IMG/VR virus record: IMGVR_UViG_3300025769_001009
Location: 1-21,395 of that record
DNA from: a virus
DNA length: 21,395 bases
Strand: one strand, 5' to 3'
This document shows positions 482 to 21,066 of this stretch, piece by piece. Within the stretch, counting starts at the first letter, position 1; each line of letters starts with the position of its first letter. Below the pieces are notes generated by a model. That model made no database searches and had not been told where the DNA came from. It saw nothing but the letters and a program-made list of their open reading frames with translations. Made by a program: the position numbers and the translations under genes.

Positions 482-2656
482 ATGCTACAAAAGATAGGAT
501 TCCAACCAGGATTCAATAAACAAATCACAGAAACTACTGCTGAAGGGCAATGGGTAGATGGTGATAACGTACGTTTTAGATATGGTACACCTGAAAAAAT
601 AGGTGGATGGTCACAGTTAGGTGAGTCTAAACTTACAGGAGCTGCAAGAGCTTTACATCATTTAGTTAACAAATCTGGTAACAAGTTTGCAATCATAGGA
701 ACAAACAGAATTTTATACGCTTATACTGGTGGTGTATTTTATGACATTCACCCAATTAAAACTACTACAACATTATCAAATGCTTTTAGTACAACGAATG
801 GTTCAGCAACGGTTACTTTAACATTCAGCACGGACCACGGAATACAAGAAAATGATATTATACTTTTAGATAATTTTACAGCTATTACAAACTCTAACTA
901 TTCAGCATCAGACTTTGATGATAAAAAATTTATGGTAACAAGTGTGCCAACAGCTACCACTTTAACTATCACAATGCCATCTAATGAGACAGGTTCAGGT
1001 GCTACAACATCTGGTGGTATTAGGGTTCAGCATTATTATCCAGTAGGACCTGCAGAACAATTACCTGGCTTTGGTTGGGGATTAGCTGCATGGGGTGGAA
1101 CTGTAACAGGTGAAGCAACTACAACTTTAAATGGTGGTATAAATGCTGTGACTACAACTATTGTTTTAACAGATGCATCTTTGTTTCCAACATCAGGTAC
1201 AAACTTTATTCAAATAGGTTCAGAAGAAATTTCATATACAGGTATATCTAGTAATACTTTAACTGGTGTTACAAGAGGGGTTAGAAATACAACAGCAGCA
1301 ACACATTCTAATGGTGCAACTATATTAAATAGTTCTGATTATATTGCTTGGGGTGAAGCAGCATCTGGTGACTTAGTTGTTGATCCTGGTTTATGGTCTA
1401 TTGATAATTTTGGTGATAAAGTAATTGCACTAATTCACAACGCACAAGTATTTGAATGGGACTCCAATGCAACAAACGCTGTAACCAATAGAGCAACTAT
1501 TATTGCAGGTGCACCAACAGCATCACGTGATATGTTAGTATCAACTCCTGATAGACACTTGGTATTCTTTGGTACAGAAACAACGATTGGAACACCATCT
1601 ACACAAGATGAGATGTTTATCAGATTTTCAAACCAAGAAGATATTAATACATACCAACCAACAGCGGTTAACACAGCAGGTACACAAAGACTTGCAGATG
1701 GATCTAAAATTGTAGGTGCGGTTAGAGGTAGAGATGCAATCTATGTTTGGACCGATACGTCTTTATTTACTATGAGGTTTATTGGTCAACCATTTACATT
1801 TGGTTTCCAGCAAGTAGGAACGAACTGCGGATTGATTGGACAGAACGCTGCATTAGAAGTTGACGGTGCTGCGTATTGGTTTTCAGAAAATGGTTTCTTT
1901 AAATACTCTGGTAACCTTGAGACTATGATTTGTTTAGTAGAAGATTTTGTTTTTGATGATTTAAATACAACAGCTAATCAATTAATTAATGTTGGACTAA
2001 ATAATTTGTTTGGTGAGATTACTTGGTTCTATTGCACAGAAAGTTCAACTGTAATTAATAGATGTGTAACATATAACTACATGGACTCAACACCACAAAG
2101 ACCAGTATGGACAACAGGAACTTTAGCAAGAGGCGCATGGCAAGATTCTTCTGTGTTTGGTTTACCACATGCAACTAGTTTTACTGCAGGAGATGATGCA
2201 TCATTTGATGTAGTTGGTAATACTGAAGGTAGTACAATATACTTTGAACATGAAAAAGGAACTGATGAAGCATTAGCAACTGGTGTAAATGCAGTTACTT
2301 CTAACATTGAATCAGGAGACTTTGATATTACAGCACAAAGATCTAGACAAGGTCAACAAACAGGTGTTGCAACGTTTCAAGGAGATGGTGAATTTATTAT
2401 GAAGATTAGAAGATTTATACCTGACTTTTTATCTCAAACAGGAAATACACAAGTAACTTTACAACTTAGAAACTATCCAAATAGCTCACAAGCAAGCTCA
2501 CCACTTGGACCCTTTACAATTACCAGTTCTACTGATAAAGTAGATACACGTGCAAGAGCAAGAGCCATGTCTTTGAAGATAGCTAATACAGCTGCTAATC
2601 AAAGTTGGAAGCTTGGTACGTTTAGATTAGACACGCAACCAGACGGAAGAAGATAA
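482..2656 (+). CDS. Tail nozzle / head-tail stabilisation-like structural protein
   Basis: A 724-residue protein rich in Thr, Ser, Gly and Asn with almost no charged clusters, typical of an extracellular beta-structured virion component. The N-terminus (GFNKQITETTAEGQWVDGDN, then RFRYGTPEKIGGW) and the later beta-propeller-like repeats (DKVIALIHNAQVFEWDS around 312-328, DAIYVWTDTSLFTMRFIG in the middle) resemble proteins annotated as phage stabilisation or tail-nozzle proteins (P22 gp10 / T7 gp12 type). Two embedded beta modules stand out: HGIQENDII at 119-127 and a segment around 225-282 with EEISYTG and LTGVTRG, both common in phage fibre and tail proteins. GGAG at 474-477, 4 bases from the ATG, supports the start. 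The stop overlaps the next start (TAATG). Structural role is likely; the exact nozzle assignment is inference. Confidence 0.62.
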   Translation: MLQKIGFQPGFNKQITETTAEGQWVDGDNVRFRYGTPEKIGGWSQLGESKLTGAARALHHLVNKSGNKFAIIGTNRILYAYTGGVFYDIHPIKTTTTLSNAFSTTNGSATVTLTFSTDHGIQENDIILLDNFTAITNSNYSASDFDDKKFMVTSVPTATTLTITMPSNETGSGATTSGGIRVQHYYPVGPAEQLPGFGWGLAAWGGTVTGEATTTLNGGINAVTTTIVLTDASLFPTSGTNFIQIGSEEISYTGISSNTLTGVTRGVRNTTAATHSNGATILNSSDYIAWGEAASGDLVVDPGLWSIDNFGDKVIALIHNAQVFEWDSNATNAVTNRATIIAGAPTASRDMLVSTPDRHLVFFGTETTIGTPSTQDEMFIRFSNQEDINTYQPTAVNTAGTQRLADGSKIVGAVRGRDAIYVWTDTSLFTMRFIGQPFTFGFQQVGTNCGLIGQNAALEVDGAAYWFSENGFFKYSGNLETMICLVEDFVFDDLNTTANQLINVGLNNLFGEITWFYCTESSTVINRCVTYNYMDSTPQRPVWTTGTLARGAWQDSSVFGLPHATSFTAGDDASFDVVGNTEGSTIYFEHEKGTDEALATGVNAVTSNIESGDFDITAQRSRQGQQTGVATFQGDGEFIMKIRRFIPDFLSQTGNTQVTLQLRNYPNSSQASSPLGPFTITSSTDKVDTRARARAMSLKIANTAANQSWKLGTFRLDTQPDGRR

Positions 2657-4161
2657 TGGCAATAGGAAGTAGATTTACAAGAAGAGCACCAGCAACTTTA
2701 GCAGATTTAGCGCAAGCATATTTAAATCAAGGATTACCTAGTATATCTCCTATATTTCAACCTGTAACTAATACACCAGTTGTAGAAACTCCAGTTGAAG
2801 AAACTACATCAGGAGGAATTACTCCATTGTTATTACAACAAATGGGTGGAGACGGAGGTGGAGGTGGTCCATTTAATATAAGTGCAAACGATCCTAATGT
2901 AAGAACTATTAGAAATTATAATGCAAGACCTGCTTATGAAGCTGCTTTTGGTACAATGATGGGTGATCCTGAAGCTAATATTGCAACAGGAGCTTTGAAC
3001 ACTTCAGGTATAATGGGTCCTTATCAAGAAAGACCTCCTTCAAAAATTCAAGAACTTTTAAGCAATACTATGTTAGGAAGAGGAATTAAAGGTATAGGAA
3101 GTTTTGCAAAAAATTTATTGAGTGGTTTACCACCGAATAGAGCGGGTATTTTCCAAAACGAATTATTAGGTGGTGGCTTTATGTTAGATAACATGGGTAG
3201 ACTTGTAACAAATAATTACAACACGCCAGAAGGAATTATGGCGGGATATAATCCTGTATCAGGTGGTTTATTAAATCTTGTAACAGGTGGTAAAATGGGT
3301 GAAGAAACTAATTATGGATTAGATAAGTCTTATGACAAGAGAAGAGAAACAGTTTCTAAAACATTAAAAGAAAAATATGGAATGACTGATGCAGAAATAG
3401 CAGCAGCTGTCGCTGGAGAATATGAAGATGATGTACCAATAAATCCAGCTACTGGTAGACCAACTGATTTAATTAATAGACTAGATTTATTTAATAAATC
3501 TCAAAACTTATTAAATAGAAGAAAATCAGCGGCAGATATAATTTACAATAGAAAATTAGAAGAAAAAAGAATAGCAGATATTCCAAAAGAAGTAAGACAA
3601 TTTACTCAACCAACAAGAACTCAAAGAGAAGCAATTGCAAGAGATAATAGAGGAGATTCAAGATCAGGAGGAGGTGGAGGATTTTCTGATGTTGGAGCTG
3701 GAAGTAGTAGTAGAGGAGCAGGAAAAGGTGGTGGATATGATGCAGGTAATTTCTGTTTTGATCCAAGCACTCCTATTCAAATGGCTGACGGTTCAACTAA
3801 AGAAATTAAAAACATTCAACTCGGTGATGATACCAAAGGTGGTGAAGTTACAGGTGTATTCCAATTTAAAGCATCTGATGAAATCCATGATTACAAAGGT
3901 GTCACTGTTGCAGGTAGTCACTATGTTAAAGAAGATGGTAGATTTATTATGGTCAAAGATAGTCCACTATCTGTTAAGATTGATAAGATACCTGTTGTTT
4001 ATTCATTAGATACATCTGGTCGAAGAATATTTATTAATGATATTGAGTTTGCTGATTACAATGGTGATGGTATTGCTAAAGGATTCTTAGCAAATGCAGG
4101 TGTAGATATAACTGGTTTTGATAAAGAAGTATTAAGACAAGTAGAAAATAGATTAATATAA
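2656..4161 (+). CDS. Virion-associated protein with C-terminal Hint (Hedgehog/intein) domain
   Basis: 501 residues in two parts. Residues 1-366 are low-complexity and glycine-rich, with a helical charged stretch around 225-335 and Gly-rich linkers at 64-72 and 337-360. From Cys367 a Hint domain follows: block A CFDPSTPIQMADGSTKEI with ..NIQLGD, block B-like VTVAGSHYVKEDG with His422, and block F-like VYSLDTSGRRIFINDIEF then ADY. Hint domains perform N-to-S acyl shifts that cleave the chain before the Cys. The usual Thr of TxxH is Ala419 here, and no C-terminal His-Asn plus following Cys/Ser/Thr is seen. Splicing is therefore unlikely, and self-cleavage releasing the 366-residue part is the more plausible outcome. 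The start lies in a TAATG overlap within the structural block. The Hint call is strong; processing is inferred. Confidence 0.75.
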   Translation: MAIGSRFTRRAPATLADLAQAYLNQGLPSISPIFQPVTNTPVVETPVEETTSGGITPLLLQQMGGDGGGGGPFNISANDPNVRTIRNYNARPAYEAAFGTMMGDPEANIATGALNTSGIMGPYQERPPSKIQELLSNTMLGRGIKGIGSFAKNLLSGLPPNRAGIFQNELLGGGFMLDNMGRLVTNNYNTPEGIMAGYNPVSGGLLNLVTGGKMGEETNYGLDKSYDKRRETVSKTLKEKYGMTDAEIAAAVAGEYEDDVPINPATGRPTDLINRLDLFNKSQNLLNRRKSAADIIYNRKLEEKRIADIPKEVRQFTQPTRTQREAIARDNRGDSRSGGGGGFSDVGAGSSSRGAGKGGGYDAGNFCFDPSTPIQMADGSTKEIKNIQLGDDTKGGEVTGVFQFKASDEIHDYKGVTVAGSHYVKEDGRFIMVKDSPLSVKIDKIPVVYSLDTSGRRIFINDIEFADYNGDGIAKGFLANAGVDITGFDKEVLRQVENRLI

Positions 4162-14326: not shown

Positions 14327-15112
14327 ATGAGTAATAATACAGACATGGTTCAAAAGAATAGTGCAGGTGCACTATCACCAGTAAGCTTAAGATCCGATGC
14401 AGGAAAAGGTACGGAGGAATTAAAGTCCAGTGATAAATCAACTGTGATTTTAAAAATCCTTCACCAATTATCACCTGAGTGTAACACAAGAAACGCTAAA
14501 TACGTTGAAGGTGCTAAACCTGGAATGATATATTCTGGAAGTATGGGTAGTTTAATTGATGGTGATAAAGGACTAGAAGTAGTTGTGTGTCACACTCACA
14601 CTAGATATCCAGAATGGCAAGAGAGAGGAGACAGTGCAGCAGCACCAGTCGGTACTCACATCAATCCACCTGCGGATGCAGTAGAAGAAAAAAATGGTAA
14701 GTACAGATTATCTAACGGTAATTACTGTGAAAAAACTATGTATTTCTTTGTACTAGCATTAATTAACGGTGAAGCGAGAAGAGCAGTTATCACTATGAGA
14801 TCATCTAACTTAACTCCAGGTAGAGAGTTAAATGATTTAATTGATAATCTTAGAGTAAAAGATGCTCAAGGTTCATTTAAACCTGCAGCATTTGCAGCAG
14901 TCTTTAATCTTAAAACAGTTGGTAAAAACTGGGGAGATAAAAGCTGGCACGTCTATAAACCTAGTAAGGTTAGAATGTTAGATGTATCTAAGCCAGAAGA
15001 TTTATCGATCTATGAAACTGCAAAAAAACTTCAAGAAGAAGCTTTTGCAGGTGCAGCGAAACCTAAGTATGAACAGGTTGCATCAACTAAGAGTAAAGAA
15101 GACATTATCTAG
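14327..15112 (+). CDS. Putative single-stranded DNA-binding protein
   Basis: 261 residues. After a polar N-terminus the central part is beta-rich with conserved-looking blocks VVVCHTHTRYPEWQERGDS, CEKTMYFFVLALINGEARRA and VITMRSSNLTPGRELNDLI. The C-terminus becomes flexible and ends KSKEDII, an acidic tip reminiscent of the partner-binding tails of ssDNA-binding proteins such as E. coli SSB and T7 gp2.5. It lies between a strongly expressed coiled-coil gene and the primase, where phages often place this protein. The identity therefore rests on position, an OB-like beta pattern and the tail, not on a named domain. The primase two positions downstream ends with the same EDII tetrapeptide. Confidence in the gene is high, in the function moderate. 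Confidence 0.5.
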   Translation: MSNNTDMVQKNSAGALSPVSLRSDAGKGTEELKSSDKSTVILKILHQLSPECNTRNAKYVEGAKPGMIYSGSMGSLIDGDKGLEVVVCHTHTRYPEWQERGDSAAAPVGTHINPPADAVEEKNGKYRLSNGNYCEKTMYFFVLALINGEARRAVITMRSSNLTPGRELNDLIDNLRVKDAQGSFKPAAFAAVFNLKTVGKNWGDKSWHVYKPSKVRMLDVSKPEDLSIYETAKKLQEEAFAGAAKPKYEQVASTKSKEDII

Positions 15113-15170
15113 TTTCCCTTTGGGGAATGCTGGCCAAGCAGAGGCGCTGAAGGGAGACTGGAGGCGCCTT
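15113..15170 (+). ncRNA. GC-rich structured RNA candidate before the primase gene
   Basis: Between the ssDNA-binding candidate and the primase, positions 15116-15169 are 35 of 54 G or C by hand count, far above the surroundings. Three hairpins can form: TTCCC/GGGAA (15114-15118 with 15123-15127), TGCT/AGCA (15128-15131 with 15137-15140) and AGGCGC/GCGCCT (15142-15147 with 15164-15169). The last loop contains AAGGGA (15150-15155), which can instead pair with TCCCTT (15115-15120), so hairpin 1 and a pseudoknot would exclude each other. It may be a cis-acting control of the primase, an RNA processing site or an origin-like structure. No known riboswitch consensus was recognised. Confidence 0.4.
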
Positions 15171-15186
15171 AAAAACAGGGATGGGA

Positions 15187-16809
15187 ATGAAAGATTTTAT
15201 AAAGTATTTTACAGGGTTAACACGTAATTATGGTGTCTGTAAAATAAACGAGGGATACGTAGATCCAGAAACAGGTAAGAAAAAATTTAAACATGAATGG
15301 TCACAATTAAAAGTTACAGAAAAAGATTATGAAGATCATTTAACGGGAATCAAATCAATTGGTATTCAACCATGTACCGATGATGGCACTGCAAGATTTG
15401 GTGCGATCGATGTAGATAAGTATCCAATTGATAGAGAACATTATTTAAAAACTATACAAGAAAAAAGTTTACCAATCATCCCTGTCCTGTCCAAAAGTGG
15501 TGGACTACATTTATATGTGTTCACCACTGAATTCGTAAAAGCAATAGAGATAAGACAGTTCTTAGAGCAAATGCTTTATGTATTTAAGTTAAATACTAAA
15601 ACAGAAATATTTCCTAAACAAACAAGTTTACGTTCTTCAGATGAAAAAGGTAACAAAGCAAACGGTAACTTTATAAATCTTCCATACAATGCAGATGGTC
15701 GAAGAGCATTAGCACCTGATGGAACTGAAATGTCTCTGGATATGTTTGTAAAATGTATTGAGCTGAATGCAGTAAACAAAAAACAATTAAAAGATATACA
15801 AGAAAAAATTATTTCAGATGAATTAAAAGGTAGTGGAGAAGAATTTAATGATGGTCCACCTTGTCTTGGAGTTCTTACAAAAGAAATAATGACAGATGAT
15901 AGAGATAGATTTTTATATAACTATATGGTGTTTGCTAAAAAGAAATACAAAGATAATTGGAAAGATAAGATAGTTGAAGCAGCTAGAAATTATTTTAAGT
16001 TTGATTCTAAATGGACAGATGATCATGTCAAAACAAAGATTAAAAGTTGGGACAAAGAAACAAAAGGTTATCAATGCAATGGAGAGTTATTATCTCCTGT
16101 ATGTGTTAAACCCGTGTGTTTAAAAAGAAAGTTTGGAATCTTATCTGATGATAAACCTGTATGGCCTAGGATGTCAGCATTACAAAAAATAAATTATAAA
16201 CCTACACCTGAATGGAAGTTTACTGTTGAAAGAGAAGATGGTGAAACAGTTCAAGTACATGCAAAAGATATTTATAAACTAGAGAGTCAAAAAGCATTGA
16301 GAGCATTGATGATGGAGCAAGCATTTGTAGTTCCACCAAATATAAAAGGTAATGACTTTATTGAAATAATGCAGTTATTATTTGACAAAGAAAAAGTAGA
16401 AACTATTGAACCAGTAGAGGGCACAAGTCCTATGGATATTTTGTTAAAGAATTTAGAGAAATATATTTATGGACCAAAAGCTACAACATATAAATCATTC
16501 GAAAGTGGTAAACCTTTGGTGGATGAAAATTACGCATGGTTTGTTTATGATGAGTTTTATTCTGATTTAAAAACCAGAGAATGGAAAACAGATCCGCAAA
16601 GAACTTCTAACATGATAAAAGAATTATTTAAAAGTGATGATAAAGATAAGAAAGCTTTGTTTAATAAACCAAAAAGATTTCCTGGTAAAGATAAAGACGA
16701 TAACTATTTTCCTCCAATAAAAGTTCTTAAGATACCTTTACATATTTTTGAAGAAAGAAAACAGGTACAAGAGATTGTAGACTTCGAAGATGAAGAGGAT
16801 ATTATTTAA
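15187..16809 (+). CDS. Archaeo-eukaryotic-type (AEP) DNA primase
   Basis: 540 residues from the ATG at 15187, chosen because AGGG (15177-15180) lies 6 bases upstream; an in-frame ATG at 15181 has the site too close. The AEP catalytic set is visible: DxD at Asp75/Asp77 in FGAIDVDKY, SGGLH with His108 in LSKSGGLHLYVF, and an acidic residue at Glu140 in KTEIFPKQ. Four cysteines, one in GPPC (226) and three in CNGELLSPVCVKPVC (297, 306, 311), flank a helical region and could bind Zn or an Fe-S cluster, as in primase C-terminal domains. The last 200 residues are a helical domain of unknown role ending DFEDEEDII. It would synthesise primers on the lagging strand; no helicase domain is fused. Its stop overlaps the SF1 helicase start (TAATG). 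Confidence 0.8.
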   Translation: MKDFIKYFTGLTRNYGVCKINEGYVDPETGKKKFKHEWSQLKVTEKDYEDHLTGIKSIGIQPCTDDGTARFGAIDVDKYPIDREHYLKTIQEKSLPIIPVLSKSGGLHLYVFTTEFVKAIEIRQFLEQMLYVFKLNTKTEIFPKQTSLRSSDEKGNKANGNFINLPYNADGRRALAPDGTEMSLDMFVKCIELNAVNKKQLKDIQEKIISDELKGSGEEFNDGPPCLGVLTKEIMTDDRDRFLYNYMVFAKKKYKDNWKDKIVEAARNYFKFDSKWTDDHVKTKIKSWDKETKGYQCNGELLSPVCVKPVCLKRKFGILSDDKPVWPRMSALQKINYKPTPEWKFTVEREDGETVQVHAKDIYKLESQKALRALMMEQAFVVPPNIKGNDFIEIMQLLFDKEKVETIEPVEGTSPMDILLKNLEKYIYGPKATTYKSFESGKPLVDENYAWFVYDEFYSDLKTREWKTDPQRTSNMIKELFKSDDKDKKALFNKPKRFPGKDKDDNYFPPIKVLKIPLHIFEERKQVQEIVDFEDEEDII

Positions 16810-20424: not shown

Positions 20425-21066
20425 ATGGCTTATTTAAATGCTAATATACCGCCAATTTATTGTAAAATAAGAAGGGAGTATCTCTATGATCTTAAAAAAA
20501 ATAAAGGACAGTCTAGTGACTGTGTTATCTTTGGTCTTAGCTCTATTTCAGGTCGTGCAATCTTATTTCATTGCATGCTACCAAATGGTGCAGTCTTTTA
20601 TAGGCTACCTATTTCAGCATTCTTTCAAAAAGAATTTGAAAGAAAAGACGTGCCTGATATGCGAGTGGATCAACTCGAACTGTGGAACTGCTTTAGTTAT
20701 TATCCTAGTGTCCATTGTTTTGATTGGTTGGCTGGTATAGACGGTAAGTATTTAGGTAAAGATAAAAAATTCTATGAAGGTCAATATTTATTTACTATTG
20801 ACTGGGCGCATCCAGAGACTAATATACTGAACACGGAACATTCAGAAATTCCGCAAGAGCACAAATGTGCACACATATTAGCGTTGAAAAATGGTAATTA
20901 TGCAGCGCAGCCAAACAACAGGATCATTTGGCATGTGAACAGTTATACAACAGATAATGATTGGCCAGACTATAGTGTGCAAACTACGTACTGGGACTGT
21001 GAAGGATCTGATTGGGTAACGGAAGATTCTGATAAAATGTTTTATGATATAGAGGAGAAAAAATGA
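20425..21066 (+). CDS. Conserved-looking phage protein downstream of polymerase, unknown function
   Basis: 213 residues beginning MAYLNANIPPIYCKIRREYL. Recurrent features are GRAILFHCMLPNGAVFYRLP, LELWNCFSYYPSV, LFTIDWAHPE, EEHKCAHILAL-like QEHKCAHILALKNGNYAAQP, PNNRIIWH and a C-terminal TEDSDKMFYDIEEKK. It looks like a soluble alpha/beta protein with several Trp and Cys and no membrane segment. I recall similar proteins next to polymerase genes in marine phages, always without a function. The start has no good ribosome-binding site: GGGGTGA (20402-20408) fits better with an ATG at 20418 that opens only 8 codons. An 84-codon hydrophobic frame with a strong site overlaps it (see findings). Confidence 0.7.
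   Translation: MAYLNANIPPIYCKIRREYLYDLKKNKGQSSDCVIFGLSSISGRAILFHCMLPNGAVFYRLPISAFFQKEFERKDVPDMRVDQLELWNCFSYYPSVHCFDWLAGIDGKYLGKDKKFYEGQYLFTIDWAHPETNILNTEHSEIPQEHKCAHILALKNGNYAAQPNNRIIWHVNSYTTDNDWPDYSVQTTYWDCEGSDWVTEDSDKMFYDIEEKK

Follow-up and report, generated by a model that had tools for sequence, protein, structure and literature searches.

A GC-rich RNA element in front of a viral primase gene

What function can be served by a short GC-rich RNA located immediately before a viral primase gene? The window, i.e. the whole 21,395-nt stretch of viral DNA that was analysed, contains such a segment at positions 15115-15168, where 35 of 54 bases (65%) are G or C, against about 28-43% along the window. 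The preliminary description of this DNA had pointed out this composition, three possible hairpins, the complementarity between TCCCTT (15115-15120) and AAGGGA (15150-15155) and an AGGG at 15177-15180, and all these observations are confirmed. The first hairpin, H1 (15112-15128, plus strand; GUUUCCC-UUU-GGGGAAU), lies directly 3' of the stop codon of the upstream gene; the second, H2 (15129-15139, plus strand), is a short palindromic segment, GCUGGCCAAGC, with the core TGGCCA at 15131-15136, and forms a weak hairpin alone; the third, H3 (15141-15170, plus strand), is the core of the RNA family described below and is matched by model R1 over these same positions. The plus strand of 15105-15200 folds with -33.2 kcal/mol (z = -3.3; 1 of 200 shuffles is equally good), while the minus strand folds ordinarily (z = -1.0). 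A search of Rfam 15, which the preliminary description had suggested, gave no relevant match, in gathering or E-value mode, either for the window or for the H3 sites that were searched.

The element is flanked by two genes on the plus strand. The upstream one (14327-15112), whose stop codon TAG (15110-15112) abuts H1, encodes a Pam3_Gp34-like protein (PF23977, PHROG 2402). Its AlphaFold model (pLDDT 78.6) weakly resembles RPA, Whirly and SSB proteins (best E 5e-3), with no significant fold match and no match in a PDB sequence search; it is a possible ssDNA-binding protein. The downstream gene (15187-16809) encodes a primase (PHROG 21866) with a match (E 5e-15) to PF22548, the AEP domain found in TOTE conflict systems. 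Its conserved start is ATG 15187, which is probably served by the Shine-Dalgarno sequence AGGGAU at 15177-15182 (plus strand); the ATG at 15181 was rejected as a start, since relatives show ATA or GGT there. Elsewhere in the window, the C-terminal third of the protein encoded at 2656-4161 includes, by eye, a Hint/intein-like stretch, CFDPSTPIQMADGSTKEIKNIQLGD, and for the protein encoded at 20425-21066 the PHROG 3704 label, ferredoxin, conflicts with the PurM annotation at the corresponding place in HTVC027P.

Structure and covariation of H3

Comparison of relatives makes it nearly certain that H3 is a structured RNA, and strongly supports its being a functional element. The preliminary description had made its proposal depend on conservation and covariation of the paired positions, and both are found: 12 of the 13 H3 pairs vary on both sides with compensation. 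In a set of 52 distinct hairpins from the primase context (A3), 132 two-sided compensatory cells were counted against 40 after shuffling, with a covariation score of 0.54 against 0.18; in 50 diverse hairpins from both primase and peptide deformylase (def) contexts (A5), the values were 176 against 56 cells and 0.70 against 0.19, and the signal was destroyed when the partners were slid. Stem pairs k5-11 of 164 distinct hairpins comprise 1050 Watson-Crick pairs, 87 G.U and 2 A.C; this asymmetry indicates that the sense-strand RNA is under selection, rather than duplex DNA or the opposite strand, and a DNA-level hairpin or palindrome was consequently rejected for H3. A coding explanation was also discarded, since the stems are replaced by compensation, stop codons occur in the region and lengths vary. 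Neither is H3 an intrinsic terminator as a rule: at least five T in the next 7 nt were found in only 9 of 184 regions.

The most constant part of the hairpin is its apex, G-S-[GAGA]-S'-U, which is fixed on a variable but paired stem. In the window the apex, GGGAGACU (15152-15159), consists of a G15152.U15159 wobble, a G15153-C15158 pair and the tetraloop GAGA at 15154-15157. Among 103 distinct hairpins from the primase context the first pair is G.U in 102 and A-U in 1, a second A-U at this position being found in HTVC304P; the second pair is G-C in 50 and C-G in 53, a swap for which the primase tree requires seven or more changes; the tetraloop is GAGA in 94, UAGC in 8 and AAGC in 1. Below the apex there is a 3x3 purine internal loop, most commonly GAA/GGA as in the window (GAA 15149-15151 opposite GGA 15160-15162), with A.G, A.G and G.A as the commonest states and Watson-Crick pairs in some lineages. 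H3 is a member of an RNA family absent from Rfam, and the hairpin is previously unreported; indeed, a literature search found no paper on a pelagiphage hairpin RNA.

Occurrence before primase genes

An exact scan found the 26-mer GGCGCTGAAGGGAGACTGGAGGCGCC (15143-15168) in at least 119 viral contigs and, among the matches listed, a primase gene follows it on the same strand in 119 of 119 copies. The cultured Pelagibacter phage HTVC027P carries it at 1833-1858, where H1 is lacking and the primase start follows 9 nt further on. A set of relatives was then collected through the primase protein, to avoid selecting for the RNA itself; in most of these (37-96% primase identity) a hairpin occupies the corresponding position, its stem different but paired and its apex GGGAGACU or GCGAGAGU. 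The apparently extreme conservation of the 26-mer was partly an artefact of the exact-match scan: it is present in 32 of 155 regions of the primase-selected set. Exceptions with ordinary hairpins and other loops are regions L182-L186, L231, L252, L255 and L257 and the phages psg01, DSL-LC04, Pan1 and R5C, and in HTVC023P a 5-nt intergenic gap takes the place of the hairpin; its absence from relatives such as this one means that it is not essential for this gene order.

The hairpins are situated between cistrons or in the leaders of transcripts, often with H1 and a short palindrome ahead of them. Overall, 357 of 444 collected hairpins precede a primase gene, and about 75 of the remainder precede def. 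The primases themselves differ, since HTVC027P-type and HTVC019P-type pelagiphages have the same hairpin and unrelated primases. In many lineages with AEP primases 4-14 nt separate the end of the hairpin from the start codon, with no Shine-Dalgarno sequence between; linkers longer than 14 nt usually contain a Shine-Dalgarno-like match of at least 4, whereas shorter ones do not.

Other genomic contexts and isolates

In six isolates of the Autographiviridae (HTVC019P, HTVC201P, HTVC022P, HTVC304P, HTVC105P and HTVC021P) the hairpin is found between the lysozyme/amidase gene and a T7-like primase gene, with compensated stems such as GGGGUAAU/GUUACUCC, GGGCUAAU/GUUAGCCC and GGGCUAGU/CCUAGCCC. Phage 023Pt_psg01 has a single match, obtained by model search of whole phage records, located directly before the peptide deformylase gene. 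About 75 of 80 def relatives carry the hairpin, including some with UAGC apices and partly with the same layout of H1 and palindrome, and in the def lineage an AUG or GUG start and a GGAGG-like stretch lie inside the 3' arm of the hairpin. The 15-mer GAAGCTAGCGTGGAG is found in 50 viral contigs, in 46 of which it forms the hairpin, while the other 4 look like chance; 18 of this set are before a primase and 18 before def.

The remaining contigs of this set show further contexts. In L496, L505, L522 and L528 the hairpin comes directly after TTGACA-N17-TATATT-like promoters and is followed by a small ORF and then by a T4-gp33-like gene (PF16805); in L535 it also directly follows such a promoter and precedes a 2OG-Fe(II) oxygenase gene; in L539, L526 and probably L507 it is placed between a Pam3_gp34-like gene and a gene of 480-488 aa without an identified family. 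In L523 and L533 the hairpin lies before, not after, the promoter-like sequence. Two observations concern tmRNA genes: L535, a contig that looks T4-like, encodes an alphaproteobacterial permuted tmRNA (3766-4045, minus strand) upstream of a peroxiredoxin gene and the hairpin, and in phage Mosig ssrA lies directly before the gp33-like gene.

A weaker candidate is found in the T4-like phage HTVC008M before the endonuclease V gene (E about 0.001, bulged stem, no relatives), and its identity with the same hairpin is the least certain of all. HTVC027P, psg01, the six autographiviruses and HTVC008M have one match each, and every complete genome with the hairpin has exactly one copy. Model R2 gave no match in HTVC023P, HTVC010P, Mosig, Melnitz, P-SSM2, S-SKS1, DSL-LC04, Pan1, R5C, JeffCo and Kokobel2.

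Evolution and host range

Hypervariability of the hairpin had been suspected from pairs of regions such as L278 and L283, whose flanks are 96% and hairpins 65% identical; it was rejected because in the regions fetched by primase the rate of stem divergence does not exceed that of four-fold sites, and the apex changes more slowly. Lineages with primases of only 22-48% identity share identical 26-nt hairpins. Between primase clusters there are 16 such identities, against 1.5 expected under independent base pairs and a maximum of 8 in 300 simulations; this excess could derive from exchange between phages or from a constraint linking base pairs.

The isolates with a match all infect SAR11 strains, the isolates searched being mostly SAR11 phages. 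A scan of genome contigs with the hairpin core retrieved one contig, from a Flavobacterium single-cell genome: L120 (KB911115.1, Flavobacterium sp. SCGC AAA160-P02), which has the exact core in a 12.7-kb phage-like contig, which means either that this family of phages extends to hosts outside SAR11 or that the cell had been contaminated. The phage contig L523 contains a Flavobacterium-1 RNA (RF02976, 9015-9137) about 240 nt downstream of the hairpin; together, L120 and L523 hint at flavobacterial hosts.

Possible roles of the hairpin

The reading that we tentatively prefer, and that is quite possibly correct, is that H3 is a cis-acting transcript element whose apex is read by a shared factor. 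The hairpin would act on its own transcript, and its apex would be read by a factor common to unrelated phages, most likely the host transcription or RNA-processing machinery; the action might be like that of HK022 put on the host RNA polymerase for the downstream operon or, alternatively, the hairpin might be a dedicated site of processing, where the message of the upstream gene is parted from that of the replication genes. An apex that stays fixed on a freely changing stem implies that it is the apex that is recognised; a single copy per genome next to unrelated neighbours argues against an ordinary gene-specific operator or regulon; and the bias to replication genes argues for action in cis. 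A shared host factor would explain why phages of unrelated kinds have the same hairpin, why a single copy in each operon or genome suffices, the free distance to the start codon and the constraint on the sense-strand RNA only. HTVC027P reportedly lacks an RNA polymerase gene and depends throughout on the polymerase of its host (PMC12753301), which fits this host-factor reading. Against it counts that no conserved boxA-like or polymerase-contact sequence was seen beside the apex. Furthermore, HTVC019P-type phages encode their own polymerase, the start codon inside the def-lineage hairpin looks like translational control, and in L523 and L533 the hairpin precedes the promoter-like sequence. More broadly, and more doubtfully, the hairpin could be a once-per-genome module, common to HTVC027P-type phages, HTVC019P-type autographiviruses and probably T4-like phages and exchanged between them, which would bind a conserved host factor and thereby seize control of the transcription or RNA processing of replication genes, no phage protein being needed.

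Several other roles must be weighed against a cis-acting element. The single copy beside differing genes, the recurrence of the same apex in unrelated phage families and the excess of identical hairpins over the number predicted by independent base pairs would all agree with an RNA working in trans, which, within the mRNA or cut out of it, would bind and titrate a protein or RNA of the host (or phage), with the neighbouring gene contributing nothing but transcription; we consider this unlikely in view of the strong bias to the site just before the primase, in at least two unrelated phage families, and of the coupling to the def start codon. A translational operator, in which a protein bound to the apex blocks initiation at the downstream start codon, or allows it by its release, is suggested by the start and Shine-Dalgarno-like stretch in the 3' arm of the def-lineage hairpins and by the many AEP-primase lineages with 4-14 nt and no Shine-Dalgarno sequence before the start. 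However, the linker measures 4-33 nt in front of AEP primases and over 100 nt in HTVC019P, and one site per genome, before different genes in different phages, makes no regulon; such an operator is rather unlikely.

A generic intercistronic stabiliser or attenuator, located between the gene for an abundant ssDNA-binding-like protein and that for the primase, might be expected from the farther relatives L182, L185, psg01, DSL-LC04, Pan1 and R5C, which have ordinary GC-rich hairpins there with the loops UUCG, GCAA and GAAA. This role is improbable for H3: it leaves the fixed apex, the positions after promoters and the def context unexplained, a U-tract is absent as a rule and the upstream protein is only possibly ssDNA-binding. 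Even less can be said for a replication signal, either an origin or a structured part of a transcript that yields a primer; occurrence once per genome and next to primase genes of unrelated types would suit it, but the hairpin is also found before def, endonuclease V and T4-gp33-like genes and the selection is on the sense-strand RNA (87 G.U against 2 A.C), so that it appears very improbable.

The switch put forward in the preliminary description, with the 5' arm of H1 pairing alternatively with the loop of H3, has the least to recommend it and is hardly probable, since H1 covaries internally, often losing its complementarity to the invariant apex, and is missing in the HTVC027P clade. The alternative is indeed the minimum-energy fold in this window, where a 16-bp helix, UCUAGUUUCCCUUUGG / CUGAAGGGAGACUGGA, gives 15105-15170 -30.6 kcal/mol against about -26.3 for H1/H2 plus H3, the latter figure being the sum of the two parts folded separately. 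Among 109 distinct regions, pairing between the upstream arm and the H3 apex reaches at least 11 bp in about 20 and at least 9 bp in about 23-25, mainly sequences with UCUAGUUUCCC; in the remaining ones it is at most 8 bp, because H1 changes internally while the apex stays, or is missing. Mutually exclusive pairing is thus not a conserved property: the complementarity between H1 and the H3 loop is lost in about 80% of distinct relatives, H1 appears as UUCCC/GGGAA, UUCAC/GUGAA, UUCUC/GAGAA or GUUAC/GUAAC under an unchanged apex, and only H1 and H3 as separate hairpins covary, the alternative helix having no conserved covariation. Sequestration of the Shine-Dalgarno sequence, also proposed there, cannot be general given the linker lengths between H3 and the start. 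H2, between H1 and H3, is replaced in relatives by other palindromes (CTTGCAAG, CTTCGAAG, CTCTAGAG, GTTGCAAC, GTAGCTAC and GTTATAAC); in many lineages, also before def, its symmetry is kept while its sequence is not, and its shortness precludes a stable hairpin.

Across the ocean, HTVC023P/027P-type and HTVC019P-type phages are both abundant and widely distributed, and the control of their genes is poorly understood. That one short RNA shape has been retained over deep divergence, once per genome in unrelated phages and before unrelated genes, implies a common partner, which could be fished with a 30-nt RNA; HTVC027P, HTVC022P and HTVC019P, all growing on HTCC1062, offer cultured pairs for this purpose.

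Comparison with known systems

The put RNA of phage HK022 acts in cis, is about 70 nt long with more than one stem-loop and needs no phage protein; like it, the hairpin described here is situated close to an early promoter or in an intergenic position, with a long phage operon downstream (PMC9378689). Differently from H3, put, which occurs in lambdoid phages, consists of two long stems with bulges and a triplex, while H3 is short and has a fixed tetraloop apex. Put suppresses termination by binding to the zinc-binding domain of beta' in the host polymerase. The region with H1, palindrome and H3 measures about 65-70 nt, with short stems and, in the HTVC027P clade, no H1.

In phage lambda, boxB has a 5-nt loop, with boxA upstream, and is bound by the N protein. 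H3 shares with the boxB of lambda-type nut sites the variable stem, the conserved GNRA-like loop and the early-operon position; conversely, in place of the pentaloop it has a 4-nt GAGA, UAGC or AAGC loop closed by G-C or C-G on a G.U pair. By eye, no conserved linear motif such as boxA was seen upstream of H3, where H1 or the varying palindrome is found, and we know of no N-like gene in phages with this hairpin.

T7 has about ten intercistronic sites whose stems RNase III cleaves, without a common apex. The HTVC019P-type copies are placed like one of them, between the lysozyme/amidase and primase genes, but H3 is present once per genome and its apex is fixed. In the def lineage the hairpin is at or next to the start codon of a phage gene, as is the operator hairpin of gp43 in RB69 and T4; however, the same hairpin serves unrelated genes at a variable distance, and an operator-like fixed position over the Shine-Dalgarno sequence and start is seen in the def lineage, not before primases. 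To our knowledge, no binding protein has been described for this hairpin. In its covariation, H3 resembles the cis RNAs that Rfam catalogues.
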